From Clostridia bacterium (GTDB lineage Bacteria > Bacillota > Clostridia > Oscillospirales > Acutalibacteraceae): 52,635 bases of DNA. A model generated the notes under the pieces. It was given only the letters and a program-made list of their open reading frames with translations, had not been told where the DNA came from and searched no databases. Made by a program: the position numbers and the translations under genes. The DNA is taken from positions 100,732 to 153,366 of the forward strand of contig JAFQKB010000047.1 of the NCBI GenBank assembly GCA_017397125.1, written 5' to 3'. Shown here one piece after another: positions 5,292 to 37,776 of the stretch. Numbering within the stretch: the stretch's first letter is position 1; each line of letters starts with the position of its first letter.

Positions 5292-5326
5292 AGAGTTATA
5301 CAATTCAGGGAAAGGTGGTCAAAACC

Positions 5327-6611: not shown

Positions 6612-6652
6612 AAAAAAAGCAGGAGACTGTACGGAACAGTCTCCTGCTTTTT
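6612..6652. terminator. Bidirectional terminator between convergent genes
   Basis: A 15-bp perfect stem (6616-6630 with 6636-6650) has A's on its left and T's on its right. It would end both the epimerase transcript and the long minus-strand operon whose last gene stops at 6657. Confidence 0.85.
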
Positions 6653-6656: not shown

Positions 6657-7943
6657 TTATTCTTCGTTCAGGCCGCGAACCTTTCGCTGGTACCGATAAA
6701 ACTGCTCGTACAGTGTCTCGGTCTCTTCCAGGCCAAGTTGTTTCGCGTTCTTTCCAGGCTCGTTGAGCATACCCGTGTACTGATAGCCGTAGACCTGCTC
6801 CAGCATATCGTAGTCATGGATCTCCTTGAGCAGACCCTCGAAATCCTTGGGACGCAGAGCACCGTTATCAAAGGGGAACTGGAAGATCTCCATATCCACC
6901 CAGAAATGCACGTCCCACTTCTTACACATCTCCGCGATCTGGGGGATGTTGTTTTCGCTCCGGGCGAAGGCAAAGGGGATGAGAATATCCAGATTCTGCA
7001 TGATCCCCTTCCACTCCTCCTGGTAGAGGTGCATATCGATGTTGTTGGGGGCCAGAGCCACCGGCTTGGTGGGAGCCAGCCGATGAGCAAAAGCGGTAAA
7101 CTCGCGGAAGAAATTCTGAATATCCTTATACTTCTCGTCCGGTACCGGAGGGTAGCCGTAATACAAGGCGCCCATAATCTCCTCAGAGACGTAGAAACCG
7201 TAAAAGGAGTGGTGATGGCCGTACCTCTCAAACAACTCGGTGGCCACCCGCTTGTGCCATTTCAGGGACTCGGGAGAGAAATCGAACCAGGCGTACAGAC
7301 CCACACCGGGGAACACCGCCATACCACACTCGTCCGCAGCGGACAGAATGGCCTCCAGCGGATCATTCTCCTTCATATTGGGGCGGCGAGGCGCATACTG
7401 GCTATCGTAAAATGCTTCACCGTCGTAGGTATCCGCCGTCATATCGTGCTGGTGCACGTAGTGGGTGCTGTCAAACATATTCTGGATCAGCACGGTGGTG
7501 ATGCCCAGACGGTGCATGGAGAATACGTGCTCTCGCCAATCCTCGTCGGTCATCAGCTCCAGCCCGTCCTTAAAATACCGGGACTCCGTGGGACTCCAAT
7601 GGCGGATGCTGATCCAGCAGCCATCCAGCAGACAGGTGGAGTGAACGTCCGACTGCACGATCTCGTAGGGCTGGCGGAGCACCTCCACCGTCTCCCCCAG
7701 ATCGTTCTCAAAACTCAATTCCCATTCGAACTGGCCGAGGAAGCCCTCGGTGCTGGGATAGGCCTTCACCAGCTCCAAAGCGGGCTTTACCTCGTAATGA
7801 CCAACCTCGACACGGCGGCCGTCCGGCCAGACAGCCGCCACGCGGACCTGACGGCAGTTGTCTGCCGCCAGGCGGAATTCCACCCGCCCATTACTGGATA
7901 CGCGGCGGGAGGGAACCGGGGTAAAATAACACTGTGTTGTCAT
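6657..7943 (-). CDS. DUF4434-type putative TIM-barrel glycoside hydrolase-like protein
   Basis: This 428-residue protein has no signal peptide and is probably cytoplasmic. Residues ~1-100 form a beta-rich domain (FTPVPSRR..., with an FEWELSFEN strand). Residues ~105-420 look like a TIM barrel of the DUF4434 type, with LDGCWISIRHW, LGITTVLIQNMF, GVGLYAWFDF, HSFYGFYVSEEIMGALYYG and VALAPNNIDMH. In DUF4434 proteins the FYGFYVSEE strand end carries acidic residues placed like those of retaining glycosidases. No biochemical role is established for the family. It is the last gene of the 12-gene operon, 17 bp after the binding-protein gene. A role in hydrolysing the imported oligosaccharide is inference. 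Confidence 0.7.
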   Translation of the reverse strand: MTTQCYFTPVPSRRVSSNGRVEFRLAADNCRQVRVAAVWPDGRRVEVGHYEVKPALELVKAYPSTEGFLGQFEWELSFENDLGETVEVLRQPYEIVQSDVHSTCLLDGCWISIRHWSPTESRYFKDGLELMTDEDWREHVFSMHRLGITTVLIQNMFDSTHYVHQHDMTADTYDGEAFYDSQYAPRRPNMKENDPLEAILSAADECGMAVFPGVGLYAWFDFSPESLKWHKRVATELFERYGHHHSFYGFYVSEEIMGALYYGYPPVPDEKYKDIQNFFREFTAFAHRLAPTKPVALAPNNIDMHLYQEEWKGIMQNLDILIPFAFARSENNIPQIAEMCKKWDVHFWVDMEIFQFPFDNGALRPKDFEGLLKEIHDYDMLEQVYGYQYTGMLNEPGKNAKQLGLEETETLYEQFYRYQRKVRGLNEE

Positions 7944-7960
7944 AGAGTGTTTACGTCCTT

Positions 7961-9262
7961 TCAGAGCAAAGCGTTGGCGTCATCCAGCATCTTTTGATAG
8001 TTGGTTTCGTACTCACCGATAACCTTGTTGATATCCTCACCCTGACGGACATACCACAGCAGGTAGAAGGCGCCGAAGCCCTGCTCCAGGACACCGTCCG
8101 TATAGGAAGGAATGAACAGATCCTGAGCCAGAGTCTCGTACAGCTCTTTGCTGCCCTCGGCCAGCAGATCGTCCTTAGAGCCCTCATCCTCGTGCTGATA
8201 CTTGCCGATCAGATCGATCAGCATACCGGCGGTATAGGGCGCGTCGGTGCCGCTGGAGATGGCAAAGCCGGTGGAGTGACCGAAATTCTTCTTTTCCGGG
8301 TTATTGGGGCCATACGGGAAGGGAGCCACGCCAAAGTCCAGAGAGATGTCGCCGGCGTTTTTCAGCGCGGTAAAATCGTCCTCCTCATAGGCGTAGGCAC
8401 CGTGGAACACGGCACGGCCCTTGAGGAACTTGTTCTGTCCGGTGACGTAGCCAACACCGCAGACGGGGTTGGTGTAGAAAATATCCTGCACCAACTCCAG
8501 AGTCTTGCGCATCTCAGGGGACTTGATGTTCAGCTTATACTTGCCGTCCACAAAATCCACAGCGGCGCACATATTGGTGGCCTGGAACACCTCGTCAAAC
8601 ATATTCTCGATACCGACGACGTTCGCCTCTTCGTCGTAGCACTCGCGGCAGATCTCCACAAACTTATCCCAGGTCCAGTTGCCGGCCTTGTACAGGTCCA
8701 TAGGCTCATCCGCACCATAGCCATTGTTAATGAGCAGGTCACGGTTGTAGTACATCACATAGGCAGTGGCGGTCACGTGACCGGCATAATACTTGCCGTC
8801 AAACTTGACATAGTCGTCCATTACGGAGATCTGATGCCAGGGCTGGGTCAGATCGATGTACTCATCCACAGCCTTCATATAGCCCTTCTGATACATATTC
8901 AGATATTCGCTGATGGAAACGTAGAACACGTCGATGGGGTCCTTAGCCGCAACCTGGGCAGCCACCTTCTGGCTCCAGGTCTGATCGCCCACGGCCTGCA
9001 TGATCTCGACCTCTTTGCCGTACTTGGTCTTCAGCTCGTTGATTGCCTTGTAATAGGGGCTGTTCTCATCAGTGCCGTCGTAGCCGGGCACGATAAAGCT
9101 GATGGTCTTGGGCTCCGCCAGAATCTTGGCGTCGCGGTCAGAAGCGGACAGACCCGGGTTGCCTGCAGGCTTGTCATCGGGATCGCCGCCACAGGCGCAG
9201 AGACTCAACAGCATCAGGACAGAGAATAAAACAGCCAACCAACGTTTTGCTTTCAATTTCAT
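7961..9262 (-). CDS. Sugar ABC transporter substrate-binding lipoprotein (family 1)
   Basis: This 433-residue extracellular binding protein has signal peptide MKLKAKRWLAVLFSVLMLLS followed by lipobox LCAC-G, Cys24 being the lipid attachment site. The body has typical family-1 features: DVFYVSISEYLNMYQKG, YYAGHVTATAYVMYYNRDLL, and AGNWTWDKFVEIC, a signature seen in sugar-binding proteins. The ATG at 9262 is preferred over a longer frame because GGAG lies upstream and the signal peptide starts here. It sits 35 bp after the glycosidase-like lipoprotein gene. It is likely the partner of the permease pair at 10771-12608. The two orphan binding proteins at 35082 and 37875 share the W-x-WD-x-F signature, so related ligands are possible. 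Confidence 0.88.
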   Translation of the reverse strand: MKLKAKRWLAVLFSVLMLLSLCACGGDPDDKPAGNPGLSASDRDAKILAEPKTISFIVPGYDGTDENSPYYKAINELKTKYGKEVEIMQAVGDQTWSQKVAAQVAAKDPIDVFYVSISEYLNMYQKGYMKAVDEYIDLTQPWHQISVMDDYVKFDGKYYAGHVTATAYVMYYNRDLLINNGYGADEPMDLYKAGNWTWDKFVEICRECYDEEANVVGIENMFDEVFQATNMCAAVDFVDGKYKLNIKSPEMRKTLELVQDIFYTNPVCGVGYVTGQNKFLKGRAVFHGAYAYEEDDFTALKNAGDISLDFGVAPFPYGPNNPEKKNFGHSTGFAISSGTDAPYTAGMLIDLIGKYQHEDEGSKDDLLAEGSKELYETLAQDLFIPSYTDGVLEQGFGAFYLLWYVRQGEDINKVIGEYETNYQKMLDDANALL

Positions 9263-9297
9263 TATGCTCGCTCCTTTTTCGTATATATTCAAACCTG

Positions 9298-10764
9298 TCA
9301 ACCAGCCAACTGGGTGATCAGGTAGGCTGCCATACAAACCTTCGCCGCATCGGCATTATACAGAGGATAGGCGTGGCGCTTCATGACCTTTTCGTAGAGA
9401 GACATATAAGTCTTTACGCGGTCTATATCCCCCATCATCGCCGCTGTATACACATTAGAACCCCAATAGAAGGTATCCGGAATATTGAAATTCTCCCAAT
9501 CGTAATGCTGACAGAAGCTGTCGTACAGATCATTGGCACGGTCGCCGGAGGGATCGATCAGACCGTGGATGATCGGGAACAGCTGGCAGGTGGCCGAGGG
9601 GTAGAAATTGCTCCAGCTAAATTTATAGGCGATCTCGCCGCCCTCTCCCAGAGCCGGTTGGTAATATTCGCCGCTCTTATTCCACATCTGCTCTTCAATG
9701 CAGCGGGCCACATCGGCGGCGCCCTTTTCCAGCTTGTCCTGGGTGGTTTTTGCCTCCGGATAGGCAGGGACCAACACATCCTTAAACAGCTTGGCGCCCG
9801 CCACCATACCCTCGTATACCTCACAGTTGTCCATCAGGTATTTGATGCGGTAGTCCGGCTTGGCCAGGGTCAGGCCGTTCGCCATAGTGGCGAACATGGC
9901 CGAAACAATGCGCTCGATGTCTTTATAATTTTCCTTGATGTACTTGGTGTCGCCGGTCTTTTCCACATACTTCTGCAGTACCATCAGGAATGTGGCCGCA
10001 TAGGAGTCGGTGGAGTCGTAAGACTTTTTGCCGTTTCCATCCAACAGGATCGTCTCGCCGGTCACTTTACCGCCGGACACGTGAACGTAATAATCGTAGA
10101 TGGTGCCATCCACGCCGTTATGATCGGTTCTGGCGGTGTTGAGATGCTCAAAGTGCCAATCCATATACCGCTTGACCACGTCCGCGTACAGATCCGCCTG
10201 GTTCAGCAGCGAAAGGGCAACAAAATCAGAGAAATAGGGCGTAACCTTGACCTGGCCATTCTTCTCGGCCGTCATCGGCAGAGCACCGTTATCCAGCTGC
10301 ATCGAGGCAAGCCAAGCGTTTTCGCTATCCACAATCGACTGATACCAGGCCATCTCACTATCCTCCAGATGAATCGTCTTACCCGTAGTGGTGGTGGTAG
10401 GCTTTTGCGTGGTAGTAGAGGTGGTCGGCTTGGTCGAGACAGTGGTATTGGTGGTGCTGCTGGCGGACGGCACTTTTGTGCCGGATGTGGTGGTCTCGCT
10501 CGTTGCAGAGCCTGTGGTAGCGGAGGTGTTCGTCCCCTGGGTGGTGGTCTGCACATCGCCGGTCTGAGTCACACCCGGGCCATCCCCAGTATCCGTGGTG
10601 GTATCGTCGGACGGTAGCCCGGACGTACCCGACGTACTGTCCGTGGAGACGTCAGAGCCATCGATGCTCACATCCCCCACCGAGCTGTCCGTATCGGGCT
10701 TCGGCTTACCGCAGGCGGACAGAACAAGAGAGAAAGCCAGCAAAACAAGCAATAATCTTTTCAT
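9298..10764 (-). CDS. Lipoprotein with Thr-rich tether and (alpha/alpha)-toroid glycosidase-like domain
   Basis: This 488-residue surface lipoprotein has a signal peptide ending LVLSAC-GK (Cys18). A ~105-residue Ser/Thr/Asp-rich tether containing GDVSIDGSDVSTD and KPTTSTTTQKPTTTTT follows. From ~residue 125 a mainly helical domain begins (MAWYQSIVDSENAWLASMQ, DSTDSYAATFLMVLQKYVE, SWSNFYPSATCQLFPII, DTFYWGSNVYTAAMMGD). This helix-hairpin pattern with D-x-x-DS-Y resembles six-hairpin glycosidases, although no exact family could be assigned. The ATG at 10764 is chosen because GGGG lies 9 bp upstream; the ATG at 10770 is too close. It would be displayed on the outer face of the membrane next to the transporter. 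Confidence 0.7.
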   Translation of the reverse strand: MKRLLLVLLAFSLVLSACGKPKPDTDSSVGDVSIDGSDVSTDSTSGTSGLPSDDTTTDTGDGPGVTQTGDVQTTTQGTNTSATTGSATSETTTSGTKVPSASSTTNTTVSTKPTTSTTTQKPTTTTTGKTIHLEDSEMAWYQSIVDSENAWLASMQLDNGALPMTAEKNGQVKVTPYFSDFVALSLLNQADLYADVVKRYMDWHFEHLNTARTDHNGVDGTIYDYYVHVSGGKVTGETILLDGNGKKSYDSTDSYAATFLMVLQKYVEKTGDTKYIKENYKDIERIVSAMFATMANGLTLAKPDYRIKYLMDNCEVYEGMVAGAKLFKDVLVPAYPEAKTTQDKLEKGAADVARCIEEQMWNKSGEYYQPALGEGGEIAYKFSWSNFYPSATCQLFPIIHGLIDPSGDRANDLYDSFCQHYDWENFNIPDTFYWGSNVYTAAMMGDIDRVKTYMSLYEKVMKRHAYPLYNADAAKVCMAAYLITQLAG

Positions 10765-10770
10765 AAACAT

Positions 10771-11691
10771 TTACCCCACAATACCTGTTCTCTCAATGCC
10801 TTCTGTGAAATGCTTCTGAACCAGTACATAAACGGCCGTGATGGGCAGCACCACGATGAGGCAGGCTGCCGCCAGGATGGATGCGCGCAGGATCTTAAGG
10901 TCGGCGCTGATGGCCTGGCCGGTGAGATACTGCATATTGGAATCCAGCGTGGTACCCACCGAGGTGATGGCCACCGACAGCGGATAATTGCCGTTGAGCA
11001 ACATACCAAACATAGAGAAATCGTTGTAATACCAAACCAGGGACAACACCGACACGGTGAGAATGGCCGATTTGATATTGGGTACCATCACCCGCAGAAA
11101 GGTCTGCAGCGGATTACAGCCGTCGATAAAGGCAGCCTCCTCCAGCTCCTTGGGCATGGTGCGGAAGAACTGGCGGATGATGAATATGTACAGTGCGGAA
11201 CGGATGCCCACGCCAAACAGCGCCTGGATGTAGAACTGCCAGACGGTATTGATGAGCTTGAGCTCCGACATCAGCACATACACCGGAATGATATAGCAAT
11301 CCGACGGCACGATGATGTTGAACAGCAGCAAAGCAAACAAAATGGGTAGACCGGGCAGCTTGAAGCGGGCAAAGCCATAGGCAATAAACACGCAGGACAC
11401 TACCTGCAGAGCCACGCAGGGCAAAACCAGCACCAAGGTGTTTTTGAGCGCCTCGCCATAGTTCATCAGGTCAAAGGCTTTTTGAAAATTGAACCAGTTC
11501 ATACCGGTGGGCAACCACACCACGGTAGCGTCCAGGGTGTCGGACACCGACATAAACGAGGAGGAGATCATAAACAGCAGCGGATAGAGGGTCACATAAC
11601 CGACACCCAGCAGAAAAACAGTGCGAATCAATCCGCCTCCGATACGAAGCAAATGCCGCTTGTACAATACAGATCTTCTAGACCAGTCCAT
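10771..11691 (-). CDS. Carbohydrate ABC transporter permease (MalG type)
   Basis: This 306-residue inner-membrane permease has about six membrane helices. The EAA loop reads ELEEAAFIDGCNPLQTFLRVMVP, matching the EAA---G---------I/L-P consensus that contacts the ATPase. PLLFMISSSFMS near the N-terminus is typical of the MalG/CUT1 class. AAGGAGG lies 7 bp before the ATG. It sits 20 bp after the MalF-type gene, its heterodimer partner. The locus has no ATPase, so a shared MsmK/UgpC-type ATPase elsewhere is expected. Confidence 0.92.
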   Translation of the reverse strand: MDWSRRSVLYKRHLLRIGGGLIRTVFLLGVGYVTLYPLLFMISSSFMSVSDTLDATVVWLPTGMNWFNFQKAFDLMNYGEALKNTLVLVLPCVALQVVSCVFIAYGFARFKLPGLPILFALLLFNIIVPSDCYIIPVYVLMSELKLINTVWQFYIQALFGVGIRSALYIFIIRQFFRTMPKELEEAAFIDGCNPLQTFLRVMVPNIKSAILTVSVLSLVWYYNDFSMFGMLLNGNYPLSVAITSVGTTLDSNMQYLTGQAISADLKILRASILAAACLIVVLPITAVYVLVQKHFTEGIERTGIVG

Positions 11692-11711
11692 GGATGACCC
11701 TCCTTTCCGTT

Positions 11712-12608
11712 TTATTCAGAAGAATAGAATGCAACACGGGACATGATCCAGCTGACCAGTCCCACCACCGCCAGCACACAGATACAATAGATCATACCCA
11801 CCGTGGCGCTGTAAGCGTAGTTGTTGTCGGTGTAATAGCTATTGATGGTCTGTATGATGAGGTTATCGTAATCGGTAAACCCGTCGATGAGCGTATAAAT
11901 GATGACCACAACCAGCGTGGGCGACAAGGTGGGCAGCGTGATCTTCCAGAATTTTTCCCACGCCGTGGCGCCCTCCATCATGGCCACCTCATAGAAGCTG
12001 CCGGGGATGGTGTTCAGCGCAGCCAGCATCAGCAATATCTGCACACCGGATTTCCACATCAGATCGAATATCTCGTTGATGATGGAGGTGATGCTCTCCA
12101 ATATCTTCTCCGGCACACCCAGATCTGCAAAAACCAGAGTCAGATCCGGCGCCTGGAATAGGTAGGTGGTGGTTTCGGCGCCCACAGAGCCATTCATCAT
12201 CACCTGATTCTCTAATATGCTGATGACCGGGCCGGAGGCAATGATGACCGGGAGAAAGAACACCGCACGGGCCAGCCCCCGCATGGGAAATTCGGCCCGC
12301 AGCACCAGCGCGATCATGGTGCTGAAGGTTATGATGAGCAGGGTGCTGGGAATGGTCTCCAGCAACGAGGTGACCAGATTATTCAGGAAGTACGAATCCT
12401 TGGTAAAAAAGTGCAGATAGTTCTCAAAGCCAACCGGGTTGGCCTCAAAGCCGTCAGCGCCCACAACCAGCTTGCTGAAGGAGTATATGCCGGTCTGGAT
12501 CATAGGCCACAAGAAAAACACGGCAATGCCCAACAGCCAGGGCGCCAGAAAGATCCAGCCCCATCTGGAGCGCTGCTTTTCCAACGATCGAAATGCGCTT
12601 TTTCTCAT
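11712..12608 (-). CDS. Carbohydrate ABC transporter permease (MalF type)
   Basis: This 298-residue permease is of the CUT1 MalF class. WGWIFLAPWLLGIAVFFLWP is the usual first membrane segment. The EAA loop is FYEVAMMEGATAWEKFWKITLP. The ATG at 12608 follows GGAGGAACGAACCG; longer in-frame starts lack a ribosome site and read through the preceding gap. The family commonly precedes its MalG partner, as here. It is the second MalF/MalG pair of the operon, and the other lies at 17036-18869. Confidence 0.92.
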   Translation of the reverse strand: MRKSAFRSLEKQRSRWGWIFLAPWLLGIAVFFLWPMIQTGIYSFSKLVVGADGFEANPVGFENYLHFFTKDSYFLNNLVTSLLETIPSTLLIITFSTMIALVLRAEFPMRGLARAVFFLPVIIASGPVISILENQVMMNGSVGAETTTYLFQAPDLTLVFADLGVPEKILESITSIINEIFDLMWKSGVQILLMLAALNTIPGSFYEVAMMEGATAWEKFWKITLPTLSPTLVVVIIYTLIDGFTDYDNLIIQTINSYYTDNNYAYSATVGMIYCICVLAVVGLVSWIMSRVAFYSSE

Positions 12609-12634
12609 CGGTTCGTTCCTCCTTTCCTTTTGGA

Positions 12635-14890: not shown

Positions 14891-14929
14891 ACCGATCTCC
14901 TCCTTTCCACAAAAATCAGTACAGACTTA

Positions 14930-17014
14930 TTACCGCAGGCGGAACTCACTGTAAAGCGTGCTGACAAACGAAACTAGCTGAACAAACAGGCTGTAGCCAA
15001 TGGTGATCAGCAACAACAGCAGATAGATACCCAGCACGGAGCCGCCCAGCAGCAACAAGGTCTTACCGGCGCCGTACTGGTGCACCTCACGGGTAGCCAC
15101 AAACAACTGGACCGCCGTCCAACCGTATACCACCACCCACAAAACGCCCATAAAGGCGGCCTCTTCCAGTGCAAACAGATGGGTCAGTCCGGTCAGAACC
15201 AGACTGCAAACACTGAAGGACACCAATGCGTAATTGGTGAAAATAAAGATCTCTTTGAGCTTTCCCTCGCCGTCTGCCAGGGTGCTGACCGCCCAGTTGC
15301 ACAGCACAAACAGCACCAACAGACCCACGGTGGAGCCCAGGACCAACAGAATGTTAAAATTATCCTTCACCCCGGTGGTGAAATGGAAGGCTGTGAATTG
15401 CTCGCGCACCACACCGGCAAAAAAGAACAAAAGGGTAGAGAGACACGCCAGCAGCATAGAGCCCTTTTTGTCCACCTTCAACTCATAGTAAGCCTTAAAA
15501 GGATGGGCTATGCAGTGCAGAGGATACCTCCACTTGGTCACCTGGATGTCGTAGTCACTCTTGCGATAGCGCTCGGACAGGTTGAGAGCCACCACAATAC
15601 CCAGCAGCAGAAGCACCACACCGCCCAGAATGAGAGCAAAGTGCTCACGCACCCAGAGGTCCCGCACCTCGGCAAAGCAGGAGGAATAACTGACCTTGTC
15701 ATTGCCCAGCTTGTAGTATTCCATGGCCATCTCGTACTCACCGGCCTCCTCATAGGCCGCGCCCAGTCCGATATTGGCCAGCTCGTAATAAGCGTCTGTC
15801 TTGAGCACCTCGGCCCAGTAATCGCCGGCCTCGGTGTACAGGCCCTCGTTATACAACACCGTGGCCCGGCGCACATTCTGCGCAAACAGTGTGGGCGACA
15901 GCACCGACACAGAGCCGTAATCCTGGTCCAATACCAGGATGTTATCTCCGCAAAGCTCCACCGCTACTGGACTTTTGAACGTGCCATAGCTGGTGCCGCT
16001 GCCGCCAAAAGCATACAGCAGATGGGCAGAGTCATCGTACTGAAGCAACCGATTGTAGGTATGATCCAGCACCGTCACGAAGCCATCGTCATCGGCAACC
16101 AGATCCACCAGCGAGGAGGCTACTGTGACGTTATTAACCGAATCAAAATAAGTATCCTGATCGCCGAACATACCCGGTTCGCCATTGTCGTCAAAAAGAA
16201 TATTGCCGCCCAGCGTGTTCAGCCGGCGAACCTGGCCCACACCGGAGCCGTCGCCGCCCTTGAGGGTGTAAATAAAATTTTGGCTGTCGATATCCAGGCG
16301 GATGATGGAGGTGGGCACATTCCGTTTCAAGCCGGAGGCCGCCTCGTCGGACAGGATGTTCTTCCACAATTCACGGAGCAACACCTCCGCCGTGACCGTC
16401 ACCTGCTCCGAGCCGTAATAACCCAGATATTCGTAATTTTCGCTGTACTGCAACGCGCCGTTGTAGGCGCTGGAAGAAATAACGTAAATGATTCCGGCCG
16501 TATCCACCACCACGCTGATGGGGGTATACTCGAACCCGTCCTCCACCTTATCGGCAGGGGGCGCGTCCACGGTACCGGTTACCTGACCGTCAGGAGTAGC
16601 GACATAGACCGTGCGGGCATCCTTATCCGCAATATAGAGCGTGCCGTCTGCGGTGACAAACAGACCCTGCGCAGCCTCAAACAGCAGCGGCTCTCCGCCA
16701 CGGCTAAAGCGAATCTCCCGCTGGAATCGGCCTGTCTCGTCCAGCACGACCACGCGGTCGTTACCGTCGTCCAGAATGTAGATCTGCTGTTGATCCGTCA
16801 CGTACAGATCGGTGGGACGGGACAGCGCCAAGCCACCATAGGTCTCCTCCCCTACCCAGAACGCCGTGGCCTTGTAGGGCTCGGACACCGACATAGCGTT
16901 ATCCCAGGAGTCGTATACGTACGAGTGGGACGTGCCCTCGGCGGCCACACCAACTCCGGAGCCGACCAGAATCAAGCAAAGCAGCAGGGCTGCGATTCGT
17001 TTCAGTTGTTTCAT
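14930..17014 (-). CDS. NHL beta-propeller / TPR / YIP1-like membrane fusion protein
   Basis: This 694-residue protein carries three fused parts. After signal peptide MKQLKRIAALLLCLILVGSG and an AEG cut region, residues ~55-375 hold repeated NHL/SMP-30-like blades (RPTDLYVTDQQQIYILDDGNDRVVVL, GLFVTADGTLYIADKDARTVYV, SPVAVELCGDNILVLDQDYGSVSVL). Residues ~385-460 contain TPR-like helices (YNEGLYTEAGDYW, IGLGAAYEEAGEYEMAMEYYK). A membrane helix at about 470-490 is followed by a cytoplasmic link and five or so membrane segments (~525-690) resembling YIP1-family bundles. The ATG at 17014 has GAAAGGGG 8 bp upstream; a GTG three codons earlier is too close. It could scaffold surface glycan enzymes to the two permease pairs, but this is inference. 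Confidence 0.72.
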   Translation of the reverse strand: MKQLKRIAALLLCLILVGSGVGVAAEGTSHSYVYDSWDNAMSVSEPYKATAFWVGEETYGGLALSRPTDLYVTDQQQIYILDDGNDRVVVLDETGRFQREIRFSRGGEPLLFEAAQGLFVTADGTLYIADKDARTVYVATPDGQVTGTVDAPPADKVEDGFEYTPISVVVDTAGIIYVISSSAYNGALQYSENYEYLGYYGSEQVTVTAEVLLRELWKNILSDEAASGLKRNVPTSIIRLDIDSQNFIYTLKGGDGSGVGQVRRLNTLGGNILFDDNGEPGMFGDQDTYFDSVNNVTVASSLVDLVADDDGFVTVLDHTYNRLLQYDDSAHLLYAFGGSGTSYGTFKSPVAVELCGDNILVLDQDYGSVSVLSPTLFAQNVRRATVLYNEGLYTEAGDYWAEVLKTDAYYELANIGLGAAYEEAGEYEMAMEYYKLGNDKVSYSSCFAEVRDLWVREHFALILGGVVLLLLGIVVALNLSERYRKSDYDIQVTKWRYPLHCIAHPFKAYYELKVDKKGSMLLACLSTLLFFFAGVVREQFTAFHFTTGVKDNFNILLVLGSTVGLLVLFVLCNWAVSTLADGEGKLKEIFIFTNYALVSFSVCSLVLTGLTHLFALEEAAFMGVLWVVVYGWTAVQLFVATREVHQYGAGKTLLLLGGSVLGIYLLLLLITIGYSLFVQLVSFVSTLYSEFRLR

Positions 17015-17035
17015 TCCGGTCACCCCTTTCGTAGA

Positions 17036-17908
17036 TCAATCCTTCATACCGGATGTGGACATGGTTTCGATCACCTGGTTCTGACAACAGATAAAGAGAA
17101 TCAGCGGCGGTGTCATCAGGATGAGCCCCATCACCGAGCCCACACCCGAACGGGCTGTACCGCCAGCCACCACCTGGGATAATAACGAAGAGATCATCTT
17201 GATCTTCTCGTCGTACACCAGGGTGGTGCTGATGGTGGCACCGCTGGAATTCCAGATGGTCTGGAATGCAAAAATCATAACCGTCAGCCACGCGGGCTTG
17301 ATATTGGGCATCACGATGTTGAAGTAGATCTGATGCTCCTTGGCGCCGTCTACGCGGGCCGCCTCCAGCATCGCCTCCGGTATCTGGAGCATAAAATTCT
17401 GCAGCAGATACAGACCCAGCGCCGCCTGGACCTGGGGCAGGATGAACGCCCAATAGGTGTTGATGATCTGGAGCTTAGACATCACTATGTACTGGGGAAT
17501 GAGCATCAGCGCCGTGGTGAACAGCAGAGAAAGACGCACCACACTGCTGATAAAATTCCGGCCGGTGAAATTGAGCCGGGCCAGCGGATACGCCGCCAGA
17601 CTGGACAGGAGCAGGTGTCCCAGGGTGACAACGGTGCAGATAAACACCGTATTGAATACATAGCGGGACATAGGAATCCAGAAGCCCTCAAACAGCAGAC
17701 TGATCTGCAGGAAATTCTCCAGTGTGGGGCTGTGCGGGAAGAAATGAGGAGGGAATACATAGATCTCGCTGATGGGCTTAAAGGCCGTGCTGACAGTGTA
17801 CACCATCGGCAGCAGCATAAAGACCGACATAAGCGCAATCAGAATAAAGATCACGATATTACCGCCCAGGGATCGATTCAATTTTCGGGTTCGCACGCGA
17901 AGCTTCAT
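17036..17908 (-). CDS. Carbohydrate ABC transporter permease (MalG type), second pair
   Basis: This 290-residue CUT1 permease has about six membrane helices. The EAA loop is MLEAARVDGAKEHQIYFNIVMP, and the N-terminal LLPMVYTVSTAFKP segment is MalG-like. The ATG at 17908 follows AGAGGAATCGGA; longer starts have no ribosome site. It lies 40 bp after its MalF-type partner and 21 bp before the NHL fusion gene. It is clearly diverged from the permease at 10771, so the two pairs are not a recent tandem duplication. Confidence 0.92.
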   Translation of the reverse strand: MKLRVRTRKLNRSLGGNIVIFILIALMSVFMLLPMVYTVSTAFKPISEIYVFPPHFFPHSPTLENFLQISLLFEGFWIPMSRYVFNTVFICTVVTLGHLLLSSLAAYPLARLNFTGRNFISSVVRLSLLFTTALMLIPQYIVMSKLQIINTYWAFILPQVQAALGLYLLQNFMLQIPEAMLEAARVDGAKEHQIYFNIVMPNIKPAWLTVMIFAFQTIWNSSGATISTTLVYDEKIKMISSLLSQVVAGGTARSGVGSVMGLILMTPPLILFICCQNQVIETMSTSGMKD

Positions 17909-17948
17909 TCCGATTCCTCTCCTTTCTTCGTCATATACCGGGCTAGGA

Positions 17949-18869
17949 TCAGCCCGCGCTAAAGCGCCTGAGCAGGTGGGTGACCACAAAATTCACAAAC
18001 ACCATCATCAGGAACAGGAAAGTAGCGATGGCCGAGGCATATCCCATCTCAAAGCGCACCGTACCCACATCCAGCATATAGGTCAGCAGGGTATCCGCCG
18101 CATAGTTGGTGGTGGGGAAACCGGCAAGTGCCTGCACGATCTGACCCACCGAGAAGCAGGCGCCGATCTGCTGCACAGCGCTGAATATGAGCTGGGGAGC
18201 CATGGAGGGCAGGGTGATGTACCACAGCTCCTGCCACCGGTTGTGTATACCGTCAATGGCGCCGGCCTCGGACAGGCTTCGGTCCATATTCTGGAATCCG
18301 GCGATAAAAGCCAAAAAGCTGACGCCAAAGCTGGACCACAGCTGAATGATAATCAGACAGCCCATCATGGTCTTGGGGTCGCTGAGCCACTGCACCGGAG
18401 CATCCACCAGCCGAAGATTGAGCAACAGGCTGTTAAGAATACCGTATCGGTCACCGGAAAAAACATAGGTCCAGGTGAAATACAGATTGCCGGTCAGGGT
18501 CGGAGAATAAAACGCCAACGTAAATATCGAACGGATGGAAGGCGGAAATTCGCTGATGAGCCAGGCGCTGAGAAACGAGATACAATAGCTGACCGGGCCG
18601 GTGATCAGCGCGAACAGCAGCGTGTTCTTGAGCACCTTGGGGAAAACGTCGTCATCCAGGAACATACGGATATAATTCTCCAGGAAGATGAACTTGGGCG
18701 GCTCCAGCATATTGAAGTATGTAAAGCCCAGGGCAATCGCTGTCACAACCGGGATAACTGTCAGGATAAGAAAAGGAATCATATACGGCGCCATCATACC
18801 GTAGGCGGTCAGATTCACTGCCGCTTTAGAAGATAACGGTCGACGTCTTCTCTGTAAGGGGTTCGCCAT
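17949..18869 (-). CDS. Carbohydrate ABC transporter permease (MalF type), second pair
   Basis: This 306-residue CUT1 permease has an N-terminal Arg-rich cytoplasmic segment (LQRRRRPLSS) and about six membrane helices. A variant EAA loop reads LSEAGAIDGIHNRWQELWYI followed by TLP. It follows the large binding-protein gene by 23 bp. In CUT1 systems the order binding protein, MalF, MalG is typical, which pairs this permease with the 959-residue binding protein at 18893-21772. Confidence 0.92.
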   Translation of the reverse strand: MANPLQRRRRPLSSKAAVNLTAYGMMAPYMIPFLILTVIPVVTAIALGFTYFNMLEPPKFIFLENYIRMFLDDDVFPKVLKNTLLFALITGPVSYCISFLSAWLISEFPPSIRSIFTLAFYSPTLTGNLYFTWTYVFSGDRYGILNSLLLNLRLVDAPVQWLSDPKTMMGCLIIIQLWSSFGVSFLAFIAGFQNMDRSLSEAGAIDGIHNRWQELWYITLPSMAPQLIFSAVQQIGACFSVGQIVQALAGFPTTNYAADTLLTYMLDVGTVRFEMGYASAIATFLFLMMVFVNFVVTHLLRRFSAG

Positions 18870-18892
18870 ATTCCTCTCTCCTTTCTAACGGA

Positions 18893-21772
18893 TTATTCCA
18901 GCTCCAGGCGCTTGCGCTCCAGCTCGCTGTTAATGATCTCCACTTGCTTTTCAAATACTTTACGGGGGTTTTCGCCGTCGTAGATGACGCTACGGAATGC
19001 ATTATCCAGGCAGCGGGAGGTGTAATAGCTGCCAGGGATCTCAGGGATCTCACGGATCCACTCCCGCTGGGCTCTCAGGGCCGCTTTTTCCTGGCTGCTC
19101 CAGTTGAGCAGCTCCACCGCGGCCAGGTTGGCGGACGCGTAGCGGGCGGCTTCGCCCAACTGGTTCTCCAGTCGGTTGCCGTAGTCTGCCTGGATATCCT
19201 TACGGGTGAACCACTCCAGGAATTGCCAGCAGGCATCCGGGTCCTTGGCATCCCGCAGGATCACAATGGCGGAGCCGGACGCACCGGCGCTGCGGTTGAC
19301 AGAGCCATCCTCCTGCACCGTGCCGGGCAGCGTGGTCATCTCCCAACAGCCGCGGATCTCGGTGGCCACAGCCGACAGAGTGCCGTACATGGGATAGGCG
19401 GTGATGCACAGCGGCATCTCGCCGCTGCGGAACAAGGTAGCAAAATCATAGCTCAGATCAAAGCCGTAATCGGTATAGAAGCCGAGCCAGGTCTCAAAGG
19501 CATCCAGCGCCTGTTGATTGTCCAGCGCCGTGGCGGTCAGGTCATCCAGATAGAAGCTGCCTCCCCCCTGCATCAGCAGAGTGGGATACAGATCCTTGGC
19601 GCCCACGCCCACCTCCACCGCGCCGGCGGCGGTGATGGCTGTATAAGGCAGGCCAACCTTCATATTGTTGCGTTGCAGGACCGCCGCCACCTCCATAAAC
19701 TGCTGCCAGTTCTCGGGAACCTTCAGCTCCAGCTCACGGAATATATCGGTGCGATAGAACATCATCTGATAGGTCTGGGTCATAGGTAGCGCATACACGC
19801 CACTCTTGTAGGAATACGGGAGCAGCGCATCGTCCGTAAAGCGCTCGCGCACAGCGGACAGATCGTCGAAGCGGGTCAGATCCATCAGGGCGCCGCGGGA
19901 CGCCAGGTTGACCGGCTGTCCGCGCGCTACATTGACTGCCACATCCGGTGCCGTACCTGCCAGCACCGCCTCGATCAGACCGCCCTGCACCAGATTCACG
20001 TTGACAGCGATATTGGTATCCGAGGTGAAGCTGTCGGCGATCATATCCTTCATGATGGTGGCCTGGTCACGGCCATCGCTGATCCAGGCGGTGATGACCT
20101 TTTGCTCACCACCGTCGCCATACTCCTCCAGGGACGCATAGTCCGCAGAAAAAGTGGCCAGGAACAAGCGAAGCGAAAAAATGAAATTGGTCCACCAGTG
20201 ACCGGTGGCAGAGGGAATCTTTGCCCCCGCACTGTGCACCATAAAATAATCCAGTTCCAGAGGCTGCTCCTTGTTATTGAGCAGCCAGTCGGTCAGGGCG
20301 GTGATCTTCTCACGAAAGGTAGCCAAGCCCTTGGGAATCTTTTCCGGCTTTTCGGCAAACACCAGCATCTGGTCGGCTACGGTGCGCAGCACCGCCGACT
20401 GCTGGGAGGGGCCGTCGTTGATCTCTTCGTATCGGTCGGCGTATTCGTTGGCCCGTCGGGCCATATCCGCCAGCATATCCTCCAGACCGCGGATCTCGCT
20501 GGTCAGAAAATAGTCACGCAGGGTGTCCGGCGAGGTGCTGGTCACCATAATGATGCGGCGGTAGAGATCGTTCATTTCCTTGGCCAGAGCATCCACGTCC
20601 ATCAGAATCGGAGCGCAGACGCCGGTGGTGGTCTCCATCCGGATGGTGTTGGGGCCTTTATTCAGCCTGACGTACAAGGGCTGTCCGTCCGCCGTCTGCA
20701 GGGTCACATTGGACCAGCGGAAGGAGAATGGGAACTCCACATCCTCAAACTCTGCGTAGGGGATCACGTCATTGACGTAAATATCCCGGTACACGGTGGT
20801 GTCCATCGAGATGTTCTGGCGGTACTTAAGGGTCAGAACGTACAGCCCATCCTCCGGTACATTCACCTCGTAGGTGATCCATTCACCGGCTTCTTTCCAG
20901 TTGGTGCCGCCGATCACATTGCGCTTGATCAGGCCGGGCACGCTGGGAACCGTGGCCGCGTGGCCCAGGTCATAGGTGGGGAAAATAGTGCGGTCGGACT
21001 TGAGCAGGGTGGTCTCCGCCGCATAGGTCAGCGGCTCGATCGCAACCGGCTTGAGTCCCTCAGCCTGCCATCCGGCCAGCACCTTTTCGTAGGTCTCCAG
21101 CTGCTCCTCATAGCCGAGTGTAACACCGGCCAGATACAGCGGATAGTCGCCCGCCATCAGGCGGAGGGTGTGGGTGCCGGCGGTAAAGGCTATCAGGTAT
21201 GCGTCATTGGTATAGCCAGTAATGTCGATCAGGGCAGCCTGCTGCCAGGCCACCACCTCCTGCTGCTCCGGCACCAGGTCATTTCCGTGGGAATCCTGCT
21301 GGATCCCGGTGGCATCCTGCCACAGGCGCTTGAGCGTCAGTCCGGTAGCCTCGCGGAATGGATATTCACCATCAACCGTCAGCATCACTTCCAGGATCTG
21401 GCCAACGTTTGCCTCTGCTGCATAATCCAGTTCAACGCGATACGTGGCGTCGGCGGGGATATCCACCGTCCACTCCACATAGCCGGACGGGGACAGTCGG
21501 ATAGCCGTTTTATCCTGGTACTCGCCGGAGGCGGCACTCTCTGCAGACAACGCCGCAGCATCCACAGCCAATTCAATGGACGCACCGGCCGGAGAGAAAG
21601 AAGCGGCTTTTCGATAATCGTAATAGGTGGGCAGAGAAAGTGTGTCGGTAGAGCCGGAAAGAGGCTCCGGTGCAAGCTCTTCCGCTGCCGTGTGAATCGA
21701 AGGGACGCCGGCCAAAAGCATAACCGTTGCCAGCAGCAACGATACCACTCTCCGCTTACTCAAACACATCAT
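18893..21772 (-). CDS. Large extracellular solute-binding protein with two N-terminal jelly-roll-like modules
   Basis: This 959-residue secreted protein has a signal peptide (SKRRVVSLLLATVMLLAGVPS) but no lipobox Cys; cleavage near HTAAEE by signal peptidase I is expected. Two beta-rich, galactose-binding/CBM-like modules follow (~45-230 with GYVEWTVDIPADATYRVELDY, and ~265-400 with WITYEVNVPEDGLYVLTLKY). A helical linker covers ~405-560, and a family-1 binding protein the remainder (APDVAVNVARGQPVNLASRG, YALPMTQTYQMMFYRTDIF, PENWQQFMEVAAVLQ, CWQFLEWFTRKD). The usual family length is 420-450, so half of it is extra. The ATG at 21772 is preferred because AAGGGGAG precedes it; a GTG at 21778 overlaps the upstream stop. 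How it stays near the permeases is unclear. Confidence 0.82.
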   Translation of the reverse strand: MMCLSKRRVVSLLLATVMLLAGVPSIHTAAEELAPEPLSGSTDTLSLPTYYDYRKAASFSPAGASIELAVDAAALSAESAASGEYQDKTAIRLSPSGYVEWTVDIPADATYRVELDYAAEANVGQILEVMLTVDGEYPFREATGLTLKRLWQDATGIQQDSHGNDLVPEQQEVVAWQQAALIDITGYTNDAYLIAFTAGTHTLRLMAGDYPLYLAGVTLGYEEQLETYEKVLAGWQAEGLKPVAIEPLTYAAETTLLKSDRTIFPTYDLGHAATVPSVPGLIKRNVIGGTNWKEAGEWITYEVNVPEDGLYVLTLKYRQNISMDTTVYRDIYVNDVIPYAEFEDVEFPFSFRWSNVTLQTADGQPLYVRLNKGPNTIRMETTTGVCAPILMDVDALAKEMNDLYRRIIMVTSTSPDTLRDYFLTSEIRGLEDMLADMARRANEYADRYEEINDGPSQQSAVLRTVADQMLVFAEKPEKIPKGLATFREKITALTDWLLNNKEQPLELDYFMVHSAGAKIPSATGHWWTNFIFSLRLFLATFSADYASLEEYGDGGEQKVITAWISDGRDQATIMKDMIADSFTSDTNIAVNVNLVQGGLIEAVLAGTAPDVAVNVARGQPVNLASRGALMDLTRFDDLSAVRERFTDDALLPYSYKSGVYALPMTQTYQMMFYRTDIFRELELKVPENWQQFMEVAAVLQRNNMKVGLPYTAITAAGAVEVGVGAKDLYPTLLMQGGGSFYLDDLTATALDNQQALDAFETWLGFYTDYGFDLSYDFATLFRSGEMPLCITAYPMYGTLSAVATEIRGCWEMTTLPGTVQEDGSVNRSAGASGSAIVILRDAKDPDACWQFLEWFTRKDIQADYGNRLENQLGEAARYASANLAAVELLNWSSQEKAALRAQREWIREIPEIPGSYYTSRCLDNAFRSVIYDGENPRKVFEKQVEIINSELERKRLELE

Positions 21773-21774
21773 TC

Positions 21775-22761
21775 TCACTCCCCTTCCTCTGTGTGATCGG
21801 TAGGTTTTGCAACCTCTTGCGGTTGCTCACCGGATGCGTCCGACCCGGCTGGGCCGGCCGCTCCCTTTTGGGCAGCCTGCTGCCGCAAAAATGCGGTAGG
21901 CGAACAACCCATCGTTCTCTTAAAAGCTTTGCTGAAGGACTGCACCGTCGCATACTGCAGACGGTTGGAAACCTGCACCAGCGACAGCTTTCCGCAACAC
22001 ATCAGCTCGATGGCCTTTTGTATCTTGCGGTTGCTGATATATTGGCGGATGGTGATGCCGTTGCACCGGCAGAAGGCGTCGGATAAATACGAATAGTTAT
22101 ACCCGATCTTCTGGGCCAGCTGCTGCACATTGATGTTTTCGAAAATGTGCTTGTCGATGTATTTGGCAACCGCATACATGGACTGGCTAATGTTCTTTTC
22201 GGACACCGGTGGGAAATACTCACTCTTGGGCTGTGCCTCAAAGCAGCGGTACACCAGCACCAGCATCTGCAGCAGATACGCCTCCACCATCTTGTTAAAA
22301 AAGCTCTCCTGCCCGTACAGCTCATCCAGGTTGCGGAACAGCGGGACAATCAGATTGCGGGTGTCGGTGACCTTGTAATACGCCAGCTTTTCGTAGTATT
22401 CCTTTAGCTCCTTCAGGGTCTCGTCCCGATCTGCCTCATCGTTGAAAAGGAAGCCGATATACGCATAGCGCAGATCCGATCCATTAGCGGTGCGGATAGC
22501 GTGTGTTTTACCGGCCGGGCAGAAATGAATATCCCCCTCCACCAGCAGATCGGTCTCATTATCGGTGGTAAAATACCCCTCGCCACTGATCACATAACTG
22601 ATCTCGTGGCACCACTGGGTATGGGAGGGGATCTCATAGCCGTCAACGCAGGATACGTCGCCGGCCTGATACAGATTGACAGCACCAAAGCATCGGGCCT
22701 CTCCGCCCTCATTGCTCTCGTACAGTTTATCAAACTGAAATCTTTTTCCGCTTATGGACAC
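21775..22761 (-). CDS. AraC-family regulator with cupin sensor domain
   Basis: This 328-residue transcription factor has an N-terminal cupin-like ligand domain (about 40-105: HTQWCHEISYVISGEGYF, VEGDIHFCPAGKTHAI). A C-terminal double helix-turn-helix spans about 190-295, with INVQQLAQKIGYNYSYLSDAF and a second helix pair at VSNRLQYATVQSFSKAFKR ending TMGCSPTAF. A ~33-residue Ala/Gln/Glu-rich tail is unusual. It is encoded 40 bp after the surface-protein gene without a terminator, and its stop lies 2 bp before the large binding-protein start, so it is inside the operon. It is a likely local regulator of this operon and possibly of the promoter at 28481-28509. Confidence 0.9.
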   Translation of the reverse strand: MSISGKRFQFDKLYESNEGGEARCFGAVNLYQAGDVSCVDGYEIPSHTQWCHEISYVISGEGYFTTDNETDLLVEGDIHFCPAGKTHAIRTANGSDLRYAYIGFLFNDEADRDETLKELKEYYEKLAYYKVTDTRNLIVPLFRNLDELYGQESFFNKMVEAYLLQMLVLVYRCFEAQPKSEYFPPVSEKNISQSMYAVAKYIDKHIFENINVQQLAQKIGYNYSYLSDAFCRCNGITIRQYISNRKIQKAIELMCCGKLSLVQVSNRLQYATVQSFSKAFKRTMGCSPTAFLRQQAAQKGAAGPAGSDASGEQPQEVAKPTDHTEEGE

Positions 22762-22801
22762 GAGTGTCCCCCCTCTATTTTCTCAGTAAAACCTTTAGGG
22801 C

Positions 22802-23950
22802 TTAGGCCTTTTTCTTTTTCAGAACCACAAACACGACAACACCGGCAGCAGCCAGAACTACGACTGCGCCAATGATGATGAAGGGCAACGCATTTTTGGG
22901 CTGATCGTCATCATTTCCGTCCACGGACTCTTTATCCGCACCGCCGTCGTCCTCGGTGGGCTCAGAAGCATCCTGGCTCACATCGGAATTGTCGCCGGTG
23001 GGATCGGTGGCCTGATCGTTTTCGGTGGTGTCACCGGACACATCACCCAGAGTGGTGGCATCGCCGGACACGTCACCCAGAGTGGTGGCGTCGGAAGAAA
23101 CGTCACCGCCAACCGTAGCAGAGGTGCTGCCATTGGTCTTCAGAGTGGAGCCAGTGGTGCCATCCGCCTTGGTGGTGGTAGCGGTGGTCGTGGTGCTATT
23201 ATCCGCCTTGGTGGTGGTTGCAGTGGTCGTGGAGGTGTTTTCCGCCTTGGTGGTGGTGGTGGTAGTGCTCTCGGTGGTTTTGGTAGCTTCCTTCTGGGCG
23301 GCCAGTTCAGCATAGGAGACAAACTTATCCTCTGCGCTGATGGTGGGGGCGGCCACGTCGCTGCCCATGTAGATCTTGATCGTATCAATGGCAACGTTCC
23401 AAGGCACATCGTTGGCCTCGGTGCAGCCATTGAGCTGGATCTTGATGTACTTATAGCCGGAGGGGATCTTGGACTTGTTCATCAGAGTGGACTGATGCCA
23501 ATAAGCCTTGTCAAAATTGATATAGATATCCTCATCATAGACGTATTTGGTCGCCTGGGTCTTTACCTGCTGCCAGGAGCCCTCGGTACCATTCTTGGAG
23601 ATGAACACGCTGATATCCTCCAGCGGATCGCCCAGACCGGCGCAGCACATCACAGAGAATTCAAAACCAGCAATATTCTTGTCCATTTTGTAGGTGATGT
23701 ACTCATCCCACTTGGCATCACGGGGCGCTGCCGCTTTGATCAGCAGAGTAGCGCCCAGATCGGGGTTGTTTTCGAACGCGATCTTATGGCTGTTGTTCGG
23801 ATCCTCGCCAACACTGGAGAACTCTACTACCTTAGCGTCAAAGCCGTCCACGATCTCATCCACAAAGGTGTCGGTTACAGCAGCGGCAGCAGGCAGGGAC
23901 AAAGTCAAGAGCAGAGCAAGAGACAAAAACAAAGCAATACTTTTCTTCAC
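22802..23950 (-). CDS. Membrane-anchored surface protein with Thr-rich stalk (first gene of the long operon)
   Basis: This 382-residue protein has signal peptide KKSIALFLSLALLLTLSLPAA and a folded module at ~35-205 (EDISVFISKNG, GYKYIKIQLNG, VAIDTIKIYMG). A ~140-residue low-complexity stalk (TTTTTTKAENTSTTTATTT and repeated GDVSGDATTL) follows, then acidic residues, and finally a C-terminal membrane helix with KKKK stop signal (LPFIIIGAVVVLAAAGVVVF). The module matches part of the 1384-residue protein at 24268-28422 (EDIKFFVSKDG, YNYVKVQLN, TVMDGVRIWY). The start is the GTG at 23950, because AGGAGGA lies 7 bp upstream; the longer frame starts before the ribosome site. Its function is unknown; a carbohydrate-binding surface role is inferred from the beta-rich module and operon context. 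Confidence 0.78.
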   Translation of the reverse strand: MKKSIALFLSLALLLTLSLPAAAAVTDTFVDEIVDGFDAKVVEFSSVGEDPNNSHKIAFENNPDLGATLLIKAAAPRDAKWDEYITYKMDKNIAGFEFSVMCCAGLGDPLEDISVFISKNGTEGSWQQVKTQATKYVYDEDIYINFDKAYWHQSTLMNKSKIPSGYKYIKIQLNGCTEANDVPWNVAIDTIKIYMGSDVAAPTISAEDKFVSYAELAAQKEATKTTESTTTTTTKAENTSTTTATTTKADNSTTTTATTTKADGTTGSTLKTNGSTSATVGGDVSSDATTLGDVSGDATTLGDVSGDTTENDQATDPTGDNSDVSQDASEPTEDDGGADKESVDGNDDDQPKNALPFIIIGAVVVLAAAGVVVFVVLKKKKA

Positions 23951-24006: not shown

Positions 24007-24035
24007 ATTATACCATTATATTTCTCTTTTGCATA
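24007..24035 (-). promoter_or_regulatory. Promoter of the surface-protein gene / 12-gene operon
   Basis: On the minus strand a perfect TATAAT (24012-24007) lies 17 bp from a poor -35 TATGCA (24035-24030). The weak -35 suggests activator dependence. A small 5'-UTR inverted pair TGGTGG (23972-23977) / CCACCA (23988-23993) lies between promoter and start. Confidence 0.6.
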
Positions 24036-24220: not shown

Positions 24221-24255
24221 AAAAGAAAACCGCCCGACGGATTTCCGTCGGGCGG
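24221..24255 (-). terminator. Terminator of the 1384-residue surface phosphoesterase gene
   Basis: A 12-bp perfect GC-rich stem (24230-24241 with 24244-24255) is followed on the minus strand by TTTTCTTTT. Confidence 0.85.
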
Positions 24256-24267
24256 CAGGTGCAAAGA

Positions 24268-28422: not shown

Positions 28423-28480
28423 GCTGTTCACACCTTTCTAAAGATTATGTTATTCCGAGCGAGAAAATCTCCTCAATGGT

Positions 28481-31431: not shown

Positions 31432-31451
31432 CTTGACAAGGAGTTTTGGCT

Positions 31452-33044: not shown

Positions 33045-33055
33045 CATCATAAAAT

Positions 33056-33092
33056 AACGGCGTTGTGTCAGGCATAGACACAACGCCGTTTT
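33056..33092. terminator. Bidirectional terminator between GH20 and hpt
   Basis: A 14-bp perfect stem (33056-33069 with 33077-33090) has T's on the right and A's on the left, between convergent genes. Confidence 0.85.
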
Positions 33093-33094
33093 CA

Positions 33095-33643: not shown

Positions 33644-33751
33644 AATCCTTCTCCTTCTATCTTTTATTTCCACAGATTTGTGGGATAGACATCTCGTTCG
33701 GCAAGCTCCGCCAGGGCGACGGCGCAGTACACACGGATTATTTCTCCATAC

Positions 33752-33780
33752 ATTATACGCCAACTGTTTGCAAAAGGCAA
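33752..33780 (-). promoter_or_regulatory. Promoter of hpt
   Basis: Minus-strand TTGCCT (33780-33775), 17 bp, then TATAAT (33757-33752). The leader is long, about 100 nt. Confidence 0.65.
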
Positions 33781-33796
33781 GTAATATGATGGATTT

Positions 33797-37772: not shown

Positions 37773-37776
37773 GACC

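Follow-up and report, generated by a model that had tools for sequence, protein, structure and literature searches.

A conserved seven-gene cassette with two CUT1 permease pairs and a probable pseudo-glycosidase

The window analysed here is a 52,635-nucleotide stretch of DNA from a Clostridia bacterium (GenBank assembly GCA_017397125.1, contig JAFQKB010000047.1, positions 100,732 to 153,366 of the forward strand), in which twelve co-directional minus-strand open reading frames (ORFs) occupy positions 6657-23950. Seven of these form a core that recurs in the same order in many other loci: a large binding protein (SBP), permeases F1 and G1, an NHL/Yip1 protein, a DUF5696 protein, and permeases F2 and G2. 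The engine is of an ordinary kind, its arrangement is unusual and widely conserved, and the bold proposal is that a dead glycosidase stands in for a binding protein. With confidence somewhat above even, we favour the reading that the core is a double CUT1 importer in which a propeller and a dead glycosidase held at the membrane would serve the second permease pair. The basis in the sequences comprises gene order, conservation, intact EAA loops, co-occurrence with an orphan ATPase, homology of DUF5696 to GH129 and its loss of the GH129 acids, to which the covariation groups and the rarity of a lipobox in the SBP are added. The readings weighed below are not exclusive, and the confidences attached to them need not sum to one. 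The core genes of the window are as follows.

18893..21778, minus strand: core gene 1, large SBP of 961 amino acids (aa), with Pfam SBP_bac_1 at residues 574-864
17949..18869, minus strand: core gene 2, permease F1 (MalF-like), EAA loop present; assigned by Pfam, clade and EAA alignment
17036..17989, minus strand: core gene 3, permease G1 (MalG-like), EAA loop; start likely near 17908, by eye
14930..17023, minus strand: core gene 4, NHL beta-propeller, TPR, transmembrane segment and Yip1 membrane domain, 697 aa
12635..14890, minus strand: core gene 5, DUF5696, GH129-related probable pseudo-glycosidase with an N-terminal hydrophobic segment
11712..12722, minus strand: core gene 6, permease F2, EAA loop; start likely near 12608, by eye
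10771..11691, minus strand: core gene 7, permease G2, EAA loop

The initial annotation had described these genes as two CUT1 permease pairs, a composite binding protein, an NHL/TPR/membrane fusion and a DUF5696-type protein, and domain searches bear it out on each. Four proteins belong to BPD_transp_1 by Pfam (the window F2 falling below the cut-off, 23.6 vs. 26.4), with F1/F2 and G1/G2 in separate clades; core gene 4 matches Yip1 at 4.5e-10 and one NHL repeat barely over the cut-off (20.5 vs. 20 bits); and core gene 5 matches DUF5696 at 1.9e-149. The SBP begins with about 550 aa that show only weak CBM6/Golvesin-like matches, followed by the family-1 SBP domain, and the window copy has a hydrophobic N-terminus and no lipobox. 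When its profile was compared with solved structures, the best match to the C-terminal domain was the sugar-binding protein Lin1841 (5ysb, E 2.2e-28), whose ligand class we take to be beta-1,2-glucooligosaccharide, followed by 5x7g (E 1.6e-7, profile positions 309-410). Unlike Lin1841 (5YSB), the cassette SBP is about 1000 aa long, has an N-terminal half without a clear family and rarely carries a lipobox.

The recurrence of the core was followed through DUF5696, which was sought in 60 genomes, i.e., the window genome (1.8 Mb, 86% complete, 89 contigs) and 59 relatives; 38 of the 60 gave a match, 36 of them over the cut-off. The family is common, with at least 567 places in the contigs of the scanned genomes, of which 80 were examined as named loci; these came from a scan with a six-row DUF5696 alignment and a single peptide pattern and are biased to one clade. 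Together with 54 loci at full-length matches in the window genome and its relatives they make up 134 DUF5696 loci, whose ORFs were labelled with profiles grown from the window proteins. The order SBP-F1-G1-NHL/Yip1-DUF5696-F2-G2 was labelled exactly in 98 of the 134 (35/54 from the window and its relatives, 63/80 named loci); 97 of these cassettes are distinct, the duplicate L035/L131 being kept in the counts. The 98-cassette counts exclude the 36 loci whose label string is not exact: 16 are truncated where a contig or the fetched stretch ends, eight have DUF5696 alone, in eight a permease is absent from the string, two are rotated (L037, L058), and in two DUF5696 is split or an ORF inserted (L137, L165). 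Five of the eight with an absent permease (L054, L057, L088, L099, L120) proved complete once the missed permease was sought with clade profiles, and the same kind of profile gave no G2 match at E 1e-10 in L080 and L082. In L043 (5653-13809), F1 has moved behind G2, giving the order SBP-G1-NHL-Yip1-DUF5696-F2-G2-F1 and breaking up pair 1.

Within the 98 cassettes, the median gaps between core neighbours run from 1 to 28.5 bp; in 11 of the cassettes NHL and Yip1 form two clean separate genes, and another two carry them in pieces. F1 and F2, and likewise G1 and G2, form pure clades of 98 each, suggesting that the permease pairs are old and co-inherited. Loci related to the window cassette come mostly from uncultured Clostridia and Oscillospiraceae, and the order also occurs in Mahella and in Bacillus sp. 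FJAT-26390 and FJAT-28004, both of which we take to be Paenibacillus. The window genome itself holds three copies; for six of the seven proteins the nearest relatives of the window copy are not its two sister copies, and for G2 one sister is tied. At L033 (12946-18227), also in the window genome, three tandem lipoproteins of about 560 aa follow pair 2, with 52-57% identity to the first, which has no significant Pfam match.

The initial annotation had proposed one dedicated twelve-gene machine for one glycan, and here only part of it survives: NHL/Yip1, DUF5696 and the two permease pairs co-occur repeatedly, whereas DUF4434 does not follow them. Among the 134 loci, labels for DUF4434 and for the surface gene appear in the window only, and AraC and binding-protein-like genes flank some cassettes, not constantly. 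Co-occurrence of DUF4434 with DUF5696 was likewise rejected, since the 60 genomes have six other DUF4434 genes over the threshold, and no contig carrying one of them also has a full-length DUF5696 match. Three genes, those for the DUF4434 protein, the surface protein and the lipoprotein of unassigned family, are local additions to the seven-gene core. One promoter-like box, one terminator and tight spacing do speak for a single twelve-gene unit, but the core alone recurs and the catalytic-like domain of the lipoprotein has one good relative in 60 genomes, so that a dedicated twelve-gene machine is very improbable.

Which partners go with which permease pair was addressed by comparing the pairwise divergences of the seven proteins across the 98 cassettes, expressed as partial correlations (bootstrap medians) for all 21 pairs. 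In the first group, the SBP correlates with F1 (0.25) and G1 (0.35), whereas its correlations with F2, G2 and DUF5696 are near 0. In the second group, DUF5696 correlates with F2 (0.22) and G2 (0.18), and NHL with DUF5696 (0.41), F2 (0.19) and G2 (0.32). This covariation suggests that the SBP is tied to F1-G1, and NHL/Yip1 together with DUF5696 to F2-G2. At the boundary between the groups, the neighbours G1 and NHL correlate less (0.11) than do SBP-G1 and NHL-G2, whose genes are not adjacent, and in the rotated locus L037, with pairs assigned by clade profiles, NHL-DUF5696-F2-G2 stay together, which supports the split.

The SBP also differs from other binding proteins in its N-terminus. A lipobox was found in 5 of 98 large SBPs by a strict pattern, which misses LCAC/LCGC-type boxes, and in 14 of 98 by a relaxed pattern added to it; as a positive control, 23 small ORFs resembling binding proteins, drawn from the window and the fetched loci, had one in 19 and 21 cases, respectively. 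The rarity of the lipobox suggests that in most cassettes the SBP has a non-lipid anchor or is released.

The nature of DUF5696 was examined with two alignments, the broader A1 (26 rows) and A4 (41 rows). The A4 profile matched the GH129 alpha-N-acetylgalactosaminidase NagBb (5WZN) at E 6.5e-5, and two related proteins, represented by three chains, at about 0.002; in phmmer searches against solved structures, nothing significant was found for DUF5696, DUF4434 or the glycosidase-like lipoprotein described below. Aligned by hhalign to four GH129-family proteins, A1 scored 99% (E 8.8e-18, 377 columns) and A4 97.7% (1.6e-12, 218 C-terminal columns), these being pairwise rather than database E-values, and control alignments of the SBP and NHL scored 0.1% and 0.2% against the same four proteins. 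By these profile comparisons, DUF5696 is homologous to GH129 across the barrel and the C-terminal region. The Asp in the LHLDGW stretch of NagBb is presumably the catalytic nucleophile, and the corresponding column of DUF5696 is acidic in 1/26 rows of A1 and 1/41 of A4, the residues facing it being T, L, S, K and others; chain 5wzq has Ala at this position, among other changes. Two further acid columns, invariant in the four GH129-family sequences (D517 and E561 of L178), are mostly non-acidic, with acids in 0/41 and 2/41 rows of A4. Because this GH129 homologue mostly lacks the GH129 acids, DUF5696 is probably a pseudo-glycosidase; it differs from NagBb in this loss and in being encoded in a transporter operon. 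The trimming of glycans that the initial annotation had foreseen is, for DUF5696, unlikely.

None of the twelve operon proteins matches an ABC ATPase domain (E 0.1). In the alignment, the EAA-loop glycine is kept in 97 or 98 of 98 sequences of all four permeases, and each pair should thus dock an ATPase; an apparent defect of the F2 loop, which arose from the failure of a regular expression (31/98), was overturned by the alignment, where the loop is intact. Of the 60 genomes, 25 carry the cassette, and a UgpC/MsmX-type ATPase passes the UgpC cut-off in 22 of these and in 15 of the other 35 (p 4e-4). In a phylum sample of 299 genomes, which the marker and ATPase scans are taken to cover identically, it occurs in 25/26 with NHL/Yip1 (marker E 1e-60, ATPase E 1e-120) vs. 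104/273 without (p 3e-9). For 19 of the 25 cassette genomes, 20 ATPase stretches were inspected, each 7.5-13.5 kb long and several ending at contig edges; none has a CUT1 permease profile match beside the ATPase, and one (L200) has a binding-protein match. For the N-terminal ATPase piece of the window genome, the best solved matches are 7x0q and then MsmX (6yir). The contact signature of MsmX is D77, R104, E110 and K154, as given in the excerpted text of PMC7658222; read by eye, D77/R104/E110 are present in 19/19 and K154 in 18/18 covering sequences. The ATPase that the operon lacks is probably an orphan MsmX/UgpC-type protein acting in trans, and the earlier suggestion of CUT1 sugar import with a shared ATPase agrees with this co-occurrence and with the intact EAA loops.

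From these observations we infer a physical complex, a binding role of DUF5696, docking of the ATPase, transport and a glycan substrate, as follows. Permease pair 1 would work with the large binding protein, and pair 2 with DUF5696 and the NHL/TPR/Yip1 membrane protein. DUF5696, held at the membrane, would probably grip the glycan without cutting it, while the NHL/TPR/Yip1 protein would touch pair 1 as well and may keep the SBP, which mostly has no lipid anchor, at the cell surface. Both pairs would be driven by one MsmX-type ATPase encoded elsewhere, and the variable end genes (here two lipoproteins and the DUF4434 protein; elsewhere GH130, GH76, GH95 and others) would adapt the cassette to its glycan. 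A stronger version, in which the seven proteins would form one standing surface complex containing two permease dimers, the pseudo-glycosidase, on a propeller/Yip1 scaffold, replacing the binding protein of pair 2, is held tentatively and is somewhat unlikely.

Several observations weigh against the favoured reading and are gathered here with the rivals on which they bear. First, DUF5696 occurs without permeases in eight loci; it is full-length with no permease match nearby in L053, L063, L066, L067, L069, L072, L075 and L084, and the ten neighbours seen in seven of these loci are housekeeping, regulatory or unrelated genes with no theme. Second, the covariation groups are crossed by NHL-F1 (0.29) and DUF-G1 (0.12, interval 0.02-0.21), the only cross-group pairs with an interval above zero; linkage of neighbouring genes may mimic two groups; and the rotated locus L058, which keeps NHL-DUF5696 beside G1 and apart from F2-G2, supports the split only partly. 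Third, 17 of the 98 stretches, that of the window among them, contain a second gene of binding-protein-like type, as would be expected if these were two ordinary CUT1 importers, pair 2 using an ordinary lipoprotein SBP nearby or elsewhere and DUF5696 and NHL/Yip1 having no direct role in transport. That several CUT1 importers of Bacillus subtilis share MsmX (excerpt of PMC5730181) also fits this alternative. However, the 98 labelled loci all place NHL/Yip1 and DUF5696, in constant order, between the two pairs, both proteins covary with F2-G2, and the other 81 of the 98 stretches have no second binding-protein match, although unlinked genes could still supply one; we regard two ordinary importers as rather unlikely.

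Fourth, the acid loss in DUF5696 is less complete in A1, where the other two GH129 acid columns are acidic in 5/26 and 2/26 rows. Column 586, beside the last of these columns, is acidic in 9/26 rows of A1 and 26/41 of A4. If the alignment were off by one position there, a retained acid could have gone unnoticed; in the window DUF5696 this residue is Asn. In addition, DUF5696 keeps its own D215, D238, R561 and E648, which may leave room for another activity. An active glycosidase that trims glycans at the transporter mouth by another mechanism would account for the GH129 homology, for the presence of D215, D238 and E648 in 41/41 A4 rows and for the acids at column 586, but each of these three residues is missing in 3-4 of 26 A1 rows and few rows have an acid in the three GH129 acid columns, which leaves such an enzyme a clearly unlikely candidate.

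Fifth, the ATPase evidence has limits of its own. The marker in the phylum sample was NHL/Yip1 rather than a checked cassette, and the association is not significant in the order outside its own family (p 0.13) or in the family outside its own genus (p 0.19), and shared ancestry and general CUT1 use therefore remain confounders. Three of the 25 cassette genomes lack an ATPase over the cut-off: the window genome, where it is split between two contig ends; G001, which has a piece; and G059 (86% complete), with no match over the cut-off.

A further alternative assigns NHL/Yip1 and DUF5696 to a glycan sensor that signals to a regulator, with transport by the permeases and binding proteins alone. 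Propellers often mediate recognition, this operon contains an AraC gene, and AraC-profile matches flank some cassettes, all of which favour a sensor; no constant regulator or signalling partner is labelled beside the core, and we consider the sensor improbable. The double importer with a dead glycosidase at pair 2 thus remains the reading that we prefer, and the other genes and signals of the operon are listed below.

6657..7943, minus strand: accessory DUF4434 protein (Pfam 8.3e-42)
7961..9337, minus strand: accessory lipoprotein, binding-protein-like by iterated profile only; start likely near 9262, by eye
9298..10770, minus strand: accessory lipoprotein with a Ser/Thr linker and a domain without a Pfam match; six-hairpin glycosidase-like by eye only
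21775..22761, minus strand: accessory cupin-AraC regulator (Pfam AraC/cupin)
22802..23950, minus strand: accessory surface protein with a Thr-rich stalk and a C-terminal hydrophobic segment ending KKKKA
6612..6652, minus strand: intrinsic terminator, hairpin plus T-run, by folding energy
24007..24015, minus strand: extended -10 promoter box, TGGTATAAT
24229..24256, minus strand: GC-rich terminator-like hairpin that separates the operon from the upstream gene

The accessory assignments of the initial annotation fared unevenly. The DUF4434-type protein and the AraC regulator stand on their Pfam domains, whereas the labels of the two lipoproteins are not confirmed. The proposed second binding protein has no Pfam or NCBIfam match and is linked to binding proteins by an iterated profile only, and the proposed glycosidase-like lipoprotein has no significant family match (Mucin at 0.015 on the linker, others at E 0.001 or weaker and well short of the cut-offs). 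The domain of the latter has one good relative in the 60 genomes (G024, 40% identity), the remaining matches falling in the Ser/Thr linker; the sole other 'GHlip' label, in L037, is also a match in the linker only. Similar Ser/Thr-rich N-terminal linkers occur in lipoproteins of the window genome, namely in the product of 9298-10770 and in ten other places, and they give rise to cross-matches in searches.

As for the extent of the operon, all twelve ORFs match the earlier gene list. The gaps of 2-40 bp given there are approached with later starts picked by eye, whereas the raw ORFs are spaced at -88 to 40 bp. Other minus-strand terminator-like matches in 6657-23950 fall inside genes. The terminator at 6612-6652 is borne out by a hairpin of 17 bp followed by a T-run (-27.3 kcal/mol, z -8.2), which a simple terminator scan did not list. 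The other side of this hairpin carries an A-run, and it could terminate both strands; convergent with the operon there is an N-acylglucosamine 2-epimerase family gene (5315-6553, plus strand). Of the activator-type promoter, the extended -10 box is present (the pattern occurs four times in the window vs. 0.74 expected), no consensus -35 was seen by eye upstream of it, and the activator type is possible. Beyond the upstream hairpin, a large surface protein of metallophosphatase/laminin-G type, whose end is xPxTG-like, is encoded at 24268-28431 (minus strand), and it shares a domain of about 150 aa with the surface protein of 22802-23950 (28% identity, E 2e-9). A second glycan region lies at 31446-39569 (plus strand), with a GH20C-type hexosaminidase (31446-33044) and family-1 binding proteins with a lipobox (35082-36785 and 37875-39569), between which there is an AraC-profile match.

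Genes downstream of other cassettes bear on the cargo. From outside the window, 93 of 109 downstream proteins were scanned, in sets of 44 and 49, and at least 15 of the 93 belong to glycosidase families. Among the matches listed, the set of 44 gave GH130 (three), GH95 (two), GH2 (one) and GH31 (one), along with three weak GH43 matches that may be the GH130 proteins, and the set of 49 gave GH76 (four), GH123 (two), GH38 (one) and GH26 (one), with GH88 and GH127 matches overlapping GH76. Individual scans confirmed GH76, GH38, GH26 and GH95; mannose-type enzymes recur downstream of cassettes. The window operon has its AraC gene, and family scans prove no glycosidase among its genes.

Among known systems, the AraNPQ, CycB-GanPQ, YtcQP-YteP and YesOPQ importers of B. 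subtilis each comprise an SBP and two permeases and share one MsmX ATPase, according to excerpts of PMC5730181 and PMC7658222. The cassette resembles them in having an SBP, permease pairs and, probably, a shared ATPase encoded elsewhere, but each of them has its own binding protein, and the same excerpts (PMC5730181; PMC7658222) describe no NHL/Yip1, DUF5696 or fixed double-permease cassette. DUF5696 appears in no paper of the literature searched, which had few subscription journals, and no description of a cassette that joins Yip1, NHL or a pseudo-glycosidase to sugar transporters was found in it. By analogy only, human 4F2hc (SLC3A2) is a dead glycosidase fold that acts as an ancillary transporter subunit; unlike DUF5696, it is GH13-type and belongs with another transporter class, and the DUF5696 profile gave no significant match to 4F2hc in the PDB (E 0.1).

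One classical binding protein per permease pair is the expectation for importers that depend on binding proteins. If the reading favoured here is true, feeding by a pseudo-glycosidase would be a new way to supply a type I ABC importer, the annotation of glycan uptake in Gram-positive gut bacteria would change, and DUF5696 and these Yip1 proteins would gain a function.

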